From Sulfurospirillum sp. (GTDB lineage: Bacteria; Campylobacterota; Campylobacteria; Campylobacterales; Sulfurospirillaceae): a DNA stretch of 64,000 bases. The notes below the pieces were generated by a model that saw only the letters and a list, made by a program, of their open reading frames with translations, was not told the DNA's origin and made no database searches. The DNA is taken from the NCBI GenBank assembly GCA_016744795.1, contig JADGDR010000003.1, positions 62,001 through 126,000 on the forward strand, read 5' to 3'. Made by a program: the position numbers and the translations under genes. Of the stretch, positions 11,057 through 15,925 are shown piece by piece. Each line of letters begins with the position of its first letter. Positions within the stretch are counted from its first letter, which is position 1.

Positions 11057-11950
11057 ATGAAATGGATGCCAATGAAATGCTACACATATTTGAAAGAAAA
11101 AAAAGATGAGTTAACTATTAGAAATTATGTAGAAGAACATAACATAAAAGTTGATGAGGAGAAAAAGTACTACTTAGGTTTTGAAGAGGAAAGTGAAAAA
11201 AAAAGAGAAGCTGATATAGAAAAGGATGTCTTCCCTGTATTGATCAAAGGAGATGTTCTAATAGTTCCAGAGCTTAATACTCTAGGAAATAGCACATTAG
11301 TTATTTTAAATCGATTAGAGATGCTTAAAACAAAAGAAATTACTTTGCATTTAATTAAAGAAGCTTTGGTCTTGGAAGCAGAAAATGAATCTCTTTACTC
11401 ATTGATAAGTGCATTACTAGATTGCGATAAAAAATTTAAGAAAAAACGTATTTTGGAAGCTAAAGCAACTCGTGAAAAGAATGGGAATAAAGTTGGACGA
11501 CCAAGCGGAAAGAAAACTAAGTCAATGTTTGATACGCATAAAAGAAAGATTATGAGTTTACATAAAAGAGATGTCCCAAAAACAAAAATACTTTTAGAGA
11601 TAAAAAAAGATGATTTAGGTCTTGAAAAAGCAACTTCTCAAGCTTTAGGGAAGTACATAAAGAGATTAGAACCAGAGCAGTTATTAAAAATAATAAACAG
11701 AAAAGCAAATAAACTACTAGGGAATACCAATAATTCAAAAGCAAAAAATAAAAAAATTACTCAAAAAGAAAATCAAACTGATATTTCTAGTGAAGCTGTA
11801 ACCAAAAGCAAAGAATTAATACAGGAAGATCAACATAAGAAAGATTCAAAAGTTGTTAATGAAATTACAGATAAAAAAGTTAAACCAACAATTAGAAAGA
11901 GAAGAAAATTTGTAGTTGCAAAAAAGAAAAGATTTCAATCTAAATCATAA
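11057..11950 (+). CDS. Serine-recombinase-like protein lacking catalytic residues
   Basis: Residues 55-165 follow the resolvase/invertase layout: KGDVLIVPELNTLGNS stands where active enzymes have GD.LVV..LDRL.RS, then a long helix region and NGNKVGRPSGKKT, the conserved hinge before the DNA-binding domain. The first strand, where active enzymes read Y.R.S with the nucleophile serine, reads CYTYLKEKK with no serine, and the DRL.R arginines are replaced by N-T-L-G-N. So it keeps the fold but should not cut DNA. The C-terminal 100 residues are very basic. No clear ribosome site; ATGs at 11066 and 11072 are also possible starts. Confidence 0.65.
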   Translation: MKWMPMKCYTYLKEKKDELTIRNYVEEHNIKVDEEKKYYLGFEEESEKKREADIEKDVFPVLIKGDVLIVPELNTLGNSTLVILNRLEMLKTKEITLHLIKEALVLEAENESLYSLISALLDCDKKFKKKRILEAKATREKNGNKVGRPSGKKTKSMFDTHKRKIMSLHKRDVPKTKILLEIKKDDLGLEKATSQALGKYIKRLEPEQLLKIINRKANKLLGNTNNSKAKNKKITQKENQTDISSEAVTKSKELIQEDQHKKDSKVVNEITDKKVKPTIRKRRKFVVAKKKRFQSKS

Positions 11951-11979: not shown

Positions 11980-12000
11980 TGTACCCCAAAGTGTACCCCA
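11980..12000. repeat. Pair of TGTACCCCA repeats, probable integrase arm sites
   Basis: TGTACCCCA occurs at 11980-11988 and again at 11992-12000. On the minus strand this reads TGGGGTACA twice, the kind of short direct repeat seen just beyond the 3' end of tRNA genes carrying integrated islands, where it acts as an arm-type binding site for tyrosine integrases. It lies about 50 bases from the tRNA fragment on the side away from the integrase. Confidence 0.55.
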
Positions 12001-12047
12001 GTTATTTTGTAGTGAAATAAAAAAGAGAGAGAATGTACTTTAAAGTA

Positions 12048-12116
12048 CGGCGAGAAGATGTAGGAATCGAACCTACCTTCAGACAGTCAACCAACAAACA
12101 CTACGTTTGAAATACT
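12048..12116 (-). pseudogene. 3' half of tRNA-Sec (selC), att core of an integrative element
   Basis: Reading the minus strand: an anticodon loop TTTCAAA (anticodon TCA), a long variable part, T arm GTAGG-TTCGATT-CCTAC, an eight-base acceptor strand ATCTTCTC, G as discriminator and CC. An eight-base acceptor with G73, a TCA anticodon and a long variable region are features of bacterial tRNA-Sec, and Escherichia coli selC ends similarly. No matching 5' half (D arm or 5' acceptor) follows, so it is a fragment starting at the anticodon loop. It sits 23 bases from the integrase gene end. selC is a classical island integration site. Confidence 0.65.
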
Positions 12117-12138
12117 TATGCGTTATTATATATAGGGC

Positions 12139-13449
12139 TTATTTCATCATTTTCATTATTTTATATATTTTTTCTTCAGAAGCATTTGGATAAATCTTTT
12201 TGAGTTGAGAGAATTCATCTTCTATAACTTCAACATCAATAATCTCATGTGAAATTGCTTTGTTAAATGTGCTTAATGCATTAGCAGATTGTATTGAATT
12301 TCCTTGTATATATCTTGTTTCTGTTGTTTTAGTATTTGAGTGTGACAGCATAGTCGCAACGTCAAATAACGTAGCACCATTGTTTAATGCAGTTTGAGCG
12401 ACCAAACTTCGTATATCATGCAAAACCATATCATGTACTCCTATACTTTCCATCATAGCTTTAAAATGTACTAAAATAGTTTTACTGTGTATTGTAAATA
12501 TTTTTCCTTTTGTTTTTATTGATGATACTTTTTTTATTGCTTCTAACACATCATATGGCAAAACAAATTCATATTCTCTTTTAGTCTTGGTCGCCGTTTT
12601 AGGAAGTTTTATCATCATCCTTTTTAAATCTAAATATTCATACCTCAATTCTGTACACTCAGATATTCTTCTACCTGTAAGTAGTAGTTTGAAAATTGCA
12701 TTTATCTCATATTTTCTAGTACTTCCTGCTGGTAAATAATTATATATCAAATCTACAATTTTAATAGTATCTTCAATATCTCTATCATATTTTCTGATGT
12801 TATCTGGAGTAGGAAATATAATTTTATTCCAATTGATGATAACATCATATTCATCAAGAATTTGTTTCATTATGACTTTTAATGGTTTTATTGTCGCTGG
12901 TTTTAGTTTTTTCTTAAGCATGCTATTTCTGAGATTTTCAATATCATTTACTGTAATACTATCAACTTCTCTATCTTCAAATAGAGTAAGATGTTTTTTA
13001 TAAAATGCAGTATAGTTTCTTATTGTATTGTCACTTGCAGGTTTACCATATTTCCTAGTAGCTATTTTTCTATTTTGTATAAATTTATCAAAACAAGTTT
13101 TAAAAGTTCTATCATTGTTATCAATGTTTTCTAAAATCAGATTTTCAACTTTTAATGTACCTTTTTCTTTTAAAATGGATTTCAGTTCTTCTTTTTTACT
13201 TTGCAAAGAATTTACAGCTTTAATTATTGAAGTACCTTTTGGTATTGTAAAGTTCTTTTTTCCTCTAGCTCTTACATTATTGTACATCTGTTCTACAGCA
13301 ACTTGTATTTGATATGCTCTATTTGGTGGTTTAGTTTCATTATCTTTTGTATAGTTAATTTCTCTTGATGAAAGTAGTATATACATACCTCCAGCTTTAT
13401 TATTGTTTGTTTTAATTTTTATAGGTTTTACTGCTGAAGATACCATCAT
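12139..13449 (-). CDS. int: Tyrosine recombinase / integrase
   Basis: A 436-residue phage-type integrase with an arm-binding N-terminal part, a SAM-like core-binding domain (about 120-210) and a catalytic domain. The catalytic set is complete: Arg in TGRRISECTELR (about 258), HxxR in LHDIR (about 343-346), His in LSHSNTKTTETRY (about 367) and the tyrosine of TRYIQ (about 378). I chose ATG 13449, which has AAAGG five bases upstream; a longer TTG frame starts at 13467. It ends next to the tRNA-Sec fragment, so it is the integrase for that site. Its promoter (TATGCTATAAT on the minus strand, -10 at 13661-13666) follows the HEPN-like gene. Confidence 0.92.
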   Translation of the reverse strand: MMVSSAVKPIKIKTNNNKAGGMYILLSSREINYTKDNETKPPNRAYQIQVAVEQMYNNVRARGKKNFTIPKGTSIIKAVNSLQSKKEELKSILKEKGTLKVENLILENIDNNDRTFKTCFDKFIQNRKIATRKYGKPASDNTIRNYTAFYKKHLTLFEDREVDSITVNDIENLRNSMLKKKLKPATIKPLKVIMKQILDEYDVIINWNKIIFPTPDNIRKYDRDIEDTIKIVDLIYNYLPAGSTRKYEINAIFKLLLTGRRISECTELRYEYLDLKRMMIKLPKTATKTKREYEFVLPYDVLEAIKKVSSIKTKGKIFTIHSKTILVHFKAMMESIGVHDMVLHDIRSLVAQTALNNGATLFDVATMLSHSNTKTTETRYIQGNSIQSANALSTFNKAISHEIIDVEVIEDEFSQLKKIYPNASEEKIYKIMKMMK

Positions 13450-13465
13450 TACTGCCTTTACTAGC

Positions 13466-13507
13466 AATCCCTACTTTTAACACAAATAGCACTAAAAAGT
13501 AGGGATT
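13466..13507. repeat. Long inverted repeat in the integrase leader
   Basis: AATCCCTACTTTT (13466-13478) pairs perfectly with AAAAGTAGGGATT (13495-13507) across a 16-base spacer. It lies in the transcribed leader of the integrase gene, about 17 bases before its start codon, so the RNA hairpin could limit integrase translation or act as an attenuator. The region up to 13620 also carries several AGTTAT-type half sites. Confidence 0.5.
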
Positions 13508-13679
13508 TCTATATTTATTTGTAGTTTATTATATCAATTTATAGTTAGCATACATCTTAAGTTATCGTTGTAGTAGTGGTCTTTGTAGATATTTATAGTT
13601 AGTTATAGTTATGTACTAAAGATAATTGTAAGTTGTATCATAAGTTTCTTTTTTAGTGGAATTATAGCATATAACTATT

Positions 13680-14510
13680 TCAAATAATTTCTCTACTAAA
13701 TTCATAAGCGACTAAAGCTCCAATATGTTGTGTTAAACTAAATGCTTTCCATAAAATTCGTTTATCATCAATCTGTGGCTTATATCGTTCTTTAATAAAA
13801 TTAGGAAATATATTTAATTGATTTTCTAAATCTTTAAAAGATTGAAAATTGGATTTTTTTATTACCTTTTTTAAGCCTTTTTTTAAGTCGTGTCCTATTT
13901 CTATCGCATTTTTTTCAATAAAATTTTTATCAATTGCTAAATATGATTTTAAAAAGATTTCAACAGCTAATCTAGAATTAAACAACGCTCTTGGATTAGT
14001 TCTTTTTTCATTTAATAATATTGAAGCTGATGTAATTTCTTCATATGCTGCTTTGAATAATTGCAATCCATATTCATTTATATTTTCAGATACTTTAACT
14101 GCATTATAATTTAAAGCAAAATCAAGACAATTTTTCCAATGCTTTTTATATTCATCAACCTTTACAAAATCTGCGAGCAATCTGTTTTTTATTAATATAG
14201 GCATATCTTTTAAAGATTCAAGGGGATTTAATTGAACTTTTCCATAAAAATTAGGAATCTCGACTTCCCAAAATTCACCATCATAGAAATATGTGGAACT
14301 ATACAAAGAGCCTATATTGTATATATTTTTTTTTGCATTTTCTTTAAACCAATTAAAAACTTTTTGTGCTACATCAGAATTTAATTTAATAATCATATTA
14401 TTATTTTCTATTGAAAATTTGCTTAACGCCATAAATGGTCTTTGTTTATAAGCTATGTCCTTTTTACAAAACTCATTATTAATATTTTTAAGCCACTCTT
14501 CTGTCATCAT
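13680..14510 (-). CDS. HEPN-like domain protein
   Basis: A 276-residue protein. The C-terminal 130 residues look like a HEPN helical bundle: ...NPRALFNSRLAVEIFLKSYLAID..., then IGHDLKKGLKKV, then a final helix with KAFSLTQHIGALVAYE. The N-terminal part is unrecognised beta-rich sequence (WEVEIPNFYGKVQLNP). HEPN proteins are often RNases of toxin and defence systems, but I cannot place the R-X4-6-H catalytic motif with certainty. It is 39 bases downstream of the broken gene after Fic and in the same orientation, so it may be the third gene of that operon. Confidence 0.55.
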   Translation of the reverse strand: MMTEEWLKNINNEFCKKDIAYKQRPFMALSKFSIENNNMIIKLNSDVAQKVFNWFKENAKKNIYNIGSLYSSTYFYDGEFWEVEIPNFYGKVQLNPLESLKDMPILIKNRLLADFVKVDEYKKHWKNCLDFALNYNAVKVSENINEYGLQLFKAAYEEITSASILLNEKRTNPRALFNSRLAVEIFLKSYLAIDKNFIEKNAIEIGHDLKKGLKKVIKKSNFQSFKDLENQLNIFPNFIKERYKPQIDDKRILWKAFSLTQHIGALVAYEFSREII

Positions 14511-14549
14511 TATTAGCCTTCGTTTATTTAAAATTAAAGATTATATTAT

Positions 14550-14801
14550 TTAGAATATATCATTTAAAAACTCTTTTTCATAAGAAGCAATAATGCTATT
14601 TAAACTATCATCTTCTAAACCTTGCATCTCTAGTGCTGATGTGCCTTGAACGATAGAAGCTAAGAACAAAGCTTTCTCATGAGCTCTTTGTTTTTTAGTA
14701 CACTTAAAGGTACTTGTTAATTTTCTAAAAATATTTGTAGGATTGTTATGGTATTTTCACAAATGTGACTCATCAAATACTGGATTGACATGAGTAATCA
14801 T
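14550..14801 (-). pseudogene. Broken 83-codon gene with in-frame TGA, coupled to Fic
   Basis: ATG at 14799-14801 overlaps the Fic stop codon (ATGA), the arrangement of translationally coupled genes. The frame reads 14 residues (MITHVNPVFDESHL), meets a TGA at 14757-14759, then continues open for 68 residues with sensible protein sequence (KKQRAHEKALFLASIVQGTSALEMQG...YEKEFLNDIF) to a TAA. TGG to TGA would be the simplest cause. Read as one gene it would be a small Fic partner, perhaps an antitoxin or regulator; no family is recognised. I see no SECIS-like stem-loop after the TGA, so selenocysteine is unlikely. Confidence 0.6.
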
Positions 14802-15925
14802 AACATTAGCTCGTATCTAATATTTCTACCTTGCGTCCCTTCTATTTGCTTAATGCAACCTAGTTCTAAAAGTTCACTTATATCTCTAGAAGCTGTACTT
14901 GATGTTGTATTTGCGATTATCATATATTTCTTTTTACTAAGATCACCTTGGAAATTTTTAATTCCAACATCTAATATTTTATTTAAAACTTTTGTTTGTC
15001 TAGAATTTAGGTTACTATCTTTATGCTTATCCCAAAACTTTGTTTTATCTGTAATATATCCTAGCTTATTCTTAGTATCAATAAGTGCACAATAGAGTGT
15101 TTTAAGAAACCATTCACACCAAACAGTAACATCTAGGTGATTATCACTTTTTCTTACGTATCCAGTTGTGCTTTCCAATGCTTTATAATATCCCTTTCTA
15201 TCACTATTGATTGCACTAGACATAGAGTATAGTTTTGAAATCTTGGAGTTTTCTATTTGTGAGAGTACAAGATCAGTTATGGCTCTCGTTATTCTACCGT
15301 TTCCATCATCAAATGGATGAATAATTACAAACCATAAGTGTGCGATAGCTGCTTTTAGTAGACTTGTTTCAGTTTTATTGAACCATGTTAAGAAACTATC
15401 CATTTCATTTTCTAATATATCTCGTGGAGGGGCTTCGTAGTATGTTTTTTCACAACCAGGTCTTCCTGAAACAACTTCCATTGTCTCCTCACCTCTAAAA
15501 GTAGCTACATTGATCTTTGTAAATCCACTATAGCCTCTTGAAAAAAGAGCATTATGCCAACCAAATAGACGCTCAAGTGTTAAGTCCTTATCATAATTTG
15601 TATTAGCATCAATAAGTACTTCAATAAGATAATCTGTAGATTCATCTATTTTTTTAAAATCAACATTATCAAAGCCAAGCTTTCTTTTTATAGAAGCTTT
15701 AACGCTATCACGATTTAATATCTCACCTTCTATTGCTGAAGTACTTATTGCTTCATTTTCTAATGCTTCTAATTGACTTTGAGAAATGCTATCTTCACTC
15801 ATAAGCTTTCCCATAGCAATTAAATACCCTTGTTCTAGAGATATTCTTTGTATCAAGCTTTCTAATTTTTTTAAATCATAAGTAAAATCTGGGTAATTTT
15901 CTTGCTCCCATATCCATCTTTTCAT
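14798..15925 (-). CDS. Fic-family AMP-transferase with DUF4172 domain
   Basis: Residues 1-85 match the DUF4172 N-terminal domain (WIWEQENYPDFTY at the start). The inhibitory helix is present near residues 58-64 (TSAIEGE, fitting [S/T]xxxE[G/N]), making this a class II Fic protein with built-in self-inhibition. The active site is intact: HPFDDGNGRITR near residue 202. The last 70 residues are a winged helix (TASRDISELLELGCI). Fic enzymes attach AMP to hydroxyl groups of target proteins. The stop overlaps the start of a broken small gene, and a HEPN-like gene follows. Target unknown. Confidence 0.92.
   Translation of the reverse strand: MKRWIWEQENYPDFTYDLKKLESLIQRISLEQGYLIAMGKLMSEDSISQSQLEALENEAISTSAIEGEILNRDSVKASIKRKLGFDNVDFKKIDESTDYLIEVLIDANTNYDKDLTLERLFGWHNALFSRGYSGFTKINVATFRGEETMEVVSGRPGCEKTYYEAPPRDILENEMDSFLTWFNKTETSLLKAAIAHLWFVIIHPFDDGNGRITRAITDLVLSQIENSKISKLYSMSSAINSDRKGYYKALESTTGYVRKSDNHLDVTVWCEWFLKTLYCALIDTKNKLGYITDKTKFWDKHKDSNLNSRQTKVLNKILDVGIKNFQGDLSKKKYMIIANTTSSTASRDISELLELGCIKQIEGTQGRNIRYELML

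Follow-up and report, generated by a model that had tools for sequence, protein, structure and literature searches.

The window, the whole 64,000-nucleotide stretch of Sulfurospirillum sp. DNA analyzed here, probably (about 0.6) shows part of a composite island, a defense island that targets an ABC-F ATPase gene and carries a selC-type remnant inside it. The remnant, a tRNA-Sec (selC) half-site, is most likely the unused P'-side att remnant of another element that was nested in or fused into the ABC-F-targeting island. The original prediction had read this half-site as attP-like and had offered two origins for it, two islands in tandem at selC or an element moved by another route. The core and the P' arms of the attP-like reading stood, but no arms were found on the other side, the island holds no second tyrosine integrase, and int1, the integrase beside the core, has a core of its own. 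The route other than selC was borne out, in that the island sits in the ABC-F gene. The features are listed below in window positions, except for one that lies outside the window on the same contig (C15).

1 to 12000, no strand assigned: island cargo, with a WYL regulator, NYN, a YagK/YfjJ-like Rep, Rad52, a Gp157-like protein, DUF932, and a resolvase-like ORF (11057 to 11950)
11980 to 12000, minus strand: two putative arm-type repeats, TGGGGTACA-CTT-TGGGGTACA, with a 3-bp spacer, on the P' side, of a type associated with tRNA ends and integrases
12035 to 12048, minus strand: 14-bp palindrome GTACTTTAAAGTAC, directly 3' of the tRNA half, with selC-like homology running through it
12049 to 12111, minus strand: tRNA-Sec (selC) 3' half, from the anticodon loop to GCC, 79 to 83% identical to native selC genes
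12139 to 13467, minus strand: int1, tyrosine recombinase of the ABC-F-targeting element, 442 amino acids, with the GRR, HDIR, LSHS, and Y motifs present
13467 to 13506, no strand assigned: candidate arm pair of int1, inverted, ATCCCTACT (13467) and AGTAGGGAT (13498), with a 31-bp step
13626 to 13640, minus strand: right att core TGATACAACTTACAA of the int1 element, with two copies only in 101 kb
13639 to 13690, minus strand: displaced native ABC-F start region, with -10-like TATAAT, RBS-like AAGAAA, and ATG ATA CAA CTT, resembling the relative G010
C15:36904 to 36918 (window -25096, outside the window): left att core copy, in the ABC-F first codons

On the minus strand of this draft assembly, the predicted order of integrase, tRNA-Sec 3' half, and two TGGGGTACA copies was recovered at 11980 to 13467, with 27 bp between int1 and the tRNA half and the palindrome between the tRNA half and the repeats. 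The tRNA half begins at TTCAAAC of the anticodon loop. It is 79 to 83% identical to the native selC of its own genome, and its best match is the selC of the relative G006 (83% over 93 bp, genome-wide E of 3e-19). The latter match extends about 17 bp beyond the tRNA end with one mismatch; the palindrome region reads GTACTTTAAAGTACATT in the window versus GTACTTTATAGTACATT downstream of the G006 gene. The T arm of the fragment is intact, and the anticodon and variable arms are diverged. Its anticodon stem is CGTAG instead of CCCGA and would pair with no selC 5' half that we saw, which points either to a donor that has not been sampled or to decay of the fragment.

A covariance-model search had been proposed as a check on the tRNA-Sec assignment. 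The Rfam models did not score tRNA-Sec in the fragment, an outcome to be expected of a sequence that covers only half of the tRNA and in which the anticodon and variable arms have degenerated. Therefore, the homology of the selC half, which did hold, rests on the DNA match. The absence of a selC 5' half, first noted for the window, was found to extend over the 101 kb around the site (best match, 12 bp; E of 0.15). ARAGORN detected only a tRNA-Leu around the site, and no second copy of the selC core was found elsewhere in the island. From its sequence, the selC half is most likely the att core of a second element.

The int1 element has a different pair of ends. One copy of the 15-bp direct repeat TTGTAAGTTGTATCA lies at window positions 13626 to 13640, 159 bp from the int1 5' end, and the other, at a distance of 38.7 kb, falls within the first ABC-F codons; none of 300 shuffles reached 15 shared bases. 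The same ATCCCTACT/AGTAGGGAT pair, at the same 31-bp step, lies inside the left end (C15:36990/37021), and each of the two motifs occurs only at the two element ends within 101 kb. The outer element thus runs from C15:36.9k to window position 13640, spans 38.7 kb, and lies at the 5' end of the ABC-F gene. Each of its ends has the direct repeat, with the left copy inside the initial codons of the target, and a tyrosine integrase adjoins one end. The displaced start region beyond the right core resembles the sequence upstream of the intact ABC-F gene in G010. As the original prediction had suggested, we compared relatives lacking the island: ABC-F and MutS are adjacent in G010, G007, G024, and G014, each of which has the site empty, and in G010 only 0.8 kb separates the MutS and ABC-F matches.

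A related element occupies the same site on L052, a 6.5-kb contig that carries the one close int1 homologue in the genome collection (79% identical, in the same place). Starting at window position 13640 and going rightward, L052 and the window share 1.27 kb of identical sequence; past this flank come the integrase, a different cargo, and the ABC-F gene start, which maps to C15:36792-37151 at 85% identity. Its two ends carry the short repeat ATGATACAACTAACAA (versus TGATACAACTTACAA in the window element), which is again the ABC-F first codons. The left-end arm pair is identical, and the right end has ATCCACACT/AGTGTGGAT, with the step still 31 bp. Although its ends, integrase, and site match those of the window element, L052 contains no selC fragment. 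Because of the core, the arm-like pair at both ends, L052, and the empty sites in relatives, int1 is therefore assigned, on sequence grounds, to the ABC-F site.

Several further points emerged from this comparison. L052 (L052:1-6554, JADGEX010000008.1) is filed under a Pseudodesulfovibrio MAG and carries the close island relative together with chromosomal flanks; it apparently comes from a relative of the source genome and is probably misbinned. The change from ATCCCTACT/AGTAGGGAT (window 13467-13506) to ATCCACACT/AGTGTGGAT (L052:1404-1443) is symmetric, as if one protein binds both arms or a hairpin is involved. In window positions 13680 to 15925, a 276-amino-acid ORF and the beginning of the Fic region match L052 without any DNA difference where compared, whereas the ABC-F flank is 85% identical. 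This contrast across the flanks suggests either that transfer was recent or that an earlier insertion had occurred in the same place.

The TGGGGTACA pair behaves like a set of arm sites. It lies above chance, with shuffles averaging 0.02 matches even when up to 3 mismatches are allowed, and it is present in only 2 of the 399 genomes of the order, the source genome and G239. The G239 pair lies 60 bp 3' of a tRNA-Leu at one end of a 40.6-kb island, the end far from the integrase; at the other end, a 59-bp tRNA repeat starts at the anticodon loop and the integrase adjoins it. In viral contigs, arm association was judged by spacer class and distance to an integrase, with the reversed pattern as a control among the matches listed. 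Ten of the 23 viral TGGGGTACA pairs with 2- to 4-bp spacers fall within 500 bp of a tyrosine integrase, and in several contigs the pairs directly follow the int 3' end. The reversed pattern gave at least one pair, and 0/1 was near an integrase among the matches listed. Because pairs of this kind tend to lie close to tyrosine integrases and tRNA ends, the TGGGGTACA repeats are most likely integrase arm sites, as had been predicted. Papers retrieved for TGGGGTACA in the role of an arm site were all unrelated. The arms of the selC half-site differ from those at the int1 ends, and no TGGGGTACA-type arm was found on the int1 side of the selC core, which leaves arm-type sites on the P' side only instead of on both sides as in a complete attP.

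We propose that int1 inserted the outer 38.7-kb element into the 5' end of the ABC-F ATPase gene, an event that moved the ABC-F promoter and start codon to the right end while the left end supplied a new start. A second, selC-type element most likely inserted at a secondary site in the outer island by crossover at the anticodon loop and later lost its integrase end, leaving a P'-side half-site that consists of the core and one TGGGGTACA arm pair and that has no role in the present integration. Two links support the reading of the half-site as a remnant. Had the present integration used this att site, its halves would now lie at opposite ends of the element, and int1 is the sole tyrosine integrase in the island, with no TGGGGTACA arm on its side. 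The att set of the outer element is complete, and that of the inner element is a half-site only; the other end of the second element was not found. Nested insertion followed by loss is what we infer, with the secondary-site route as the most likely course and preferred over a fused circle.

In the latter alternative, which is possible but doubtful, the half-site arrived as the attP of a circular plasmid- or phage-like element that fused to the outer island through recombination, homologous or of another type, and whose int side was later deleted, with no secondary-site integration. The natural attP core in G239 does start at the anticodon loop, and the left cargo includes replication and recombination genes (YagK/YfjJ-like, Rad52, and Gp157-like). 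The present form of the half-site, foreign DNA followed by the anticodon loop, the tRNA 3' half, and the P' arms, fits secondary-site insertion, and a fused circle minus its int side would look similar. However, the P side with its arms and a second integrase are missing, and the cargo ORFs retrieved no close element from plasmid and viral collections that would show such a circle (DUF932 is too common to be informative).

Two readings would give the half-site a present function, and we consider each of them very unlikely. In one, int1 itself uses the selC core and the TGGGGTACA arms, like those phage integrases that have attP directly at their 3' end, and the ABC-F repeat arose by chance. The viral TGGGGTACA pairs that directly follow an int 3' end are in keeping with this, as is the distant relationship of int1 to the G239 integrase (25 to 27%), but a used att site would be split and not left internal. 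Moreover, L052 lacks selC but again shows the 15-bp core and the arm-like pair at each end, and the closest int1 homologue among the genomes, L052 aside (G186, 44%), faces its tRNA cluster with the int 5' end. As a candidate partner of the selC core, int1 was ruled out by its own core and arm-like pair. In the other reading, the island would have two addresses, traveling by int1 and the ABC-F site while a selC integrase could act in trans on its selC-type half-site. If so, it would gain a second insertion route or recombination with elements resident at selC.

A misjoin of int1 and the selC half during assembly is slightly less probable still. The genome is a draft of 30 contigs, with selC copies at the ends of contigs C10 and C1, but the fragment, which shares about 80% identity with the other copies, is too diverged for a misjoin; the contig is 302 kb long, and its part from int1 to the right flank recurs in L052. 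The least probable reading is the predicted tandem, in which two islands share selC and the window holds an internal att site: tandem islands with tRNA fragments are known (PMC4383910), but the intact selC lies on another contig beside a different element, the borders of the island are ABC-F at one end and the displaced ABC-F start at the opposite end, and the fragment and the local selC share only about 80% identity.

That intact selC, for which a search had been proposed, was found at C10:12010-12103. The element after it encodes a secretin, a Zot-like protein, a GPA-like Rep, and an integrase fragment, and is filamentous-prophage-like. For the island in the window, by contrast with an Islander-type selC island, an intact tRNA and a fragment at opposite ends, on the same replicon and in the same orientation, were not found, nor was a cognate integrase in the interval. 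The native-selC element (G000:C10:1-12103) is bounded by a repeat of about 117 bp made of the selC 3' half plus roughly 50 bp of downstream sequence, and in the relative G005 a second selC copy, 2.1 kb away, has the same element end.

Composite islands, insertion at a gene's 5' end, and anticodon-centered tRNA fragments are all known kinds. In Shewanella putrefaciens CN-32, the composite island CGI48/GI21 is one island captured in another, and the relatives of the inner island normally use another chromosomal site; the captured GI21 has short, 9-bp att repeats (PMC8978831). GI21 is complete and excisable, whereas here the inner element is a half-site whose integrase is gone. The dusA-associated islands integrate into a conserved gene at its 5' end, where they substitute a new start (PMC4482086). 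They resemble the outer element in that a tyrosine integrase acts at a conserved gene's 5' end, the island supplies a new 5' sequence, and the original 5' sequence is moved away, with short direct repeats of 21 bp versus 15 to 16 bp here (PMC4482086). They differ in that the target here is an ABC-F ATPase gene and int1 is not placed in the dusA integrase family. The half-site resembles Islander class A, the tRNA-targeting islands with anticodon-centered att sites (PMC4383910), in its tRNA 3' half from the anticodon loop to the end and its arm-like repeats near the 3' end; unlike them, it has no cognate intact tRNA at the opposite end, and the interval holds no cognate integrase.

A tRNA fragment beside an integrase thus need not mark that integrase's site, which matters for automatic island mapping. 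The 5' end of the ABC-F ATPase gene would be an integration hot spot, occupied by two islands of differing cargo. We did not meet this integration site in the literature searched, in searches not aimed at it.

Element-like DNA does lie on both sides of the selC core, as had been predicted, and the cargo extends left to C15:36.9k with restriction and defense genes. The resolvase-like ORF points toward the selC half-site; by eye, the catalytic serine motif that is usual at the N terminus is missing, and the protein has a long tail rich in lysine. Restriction and defense cargo of the island is dense at L093:12540-19797 and L094:822-16887, with a type III restriction enzyme, a Snf2-type helicase with a DUF4391 protein, an MksE-like protein, McrBC, and DUF2779.
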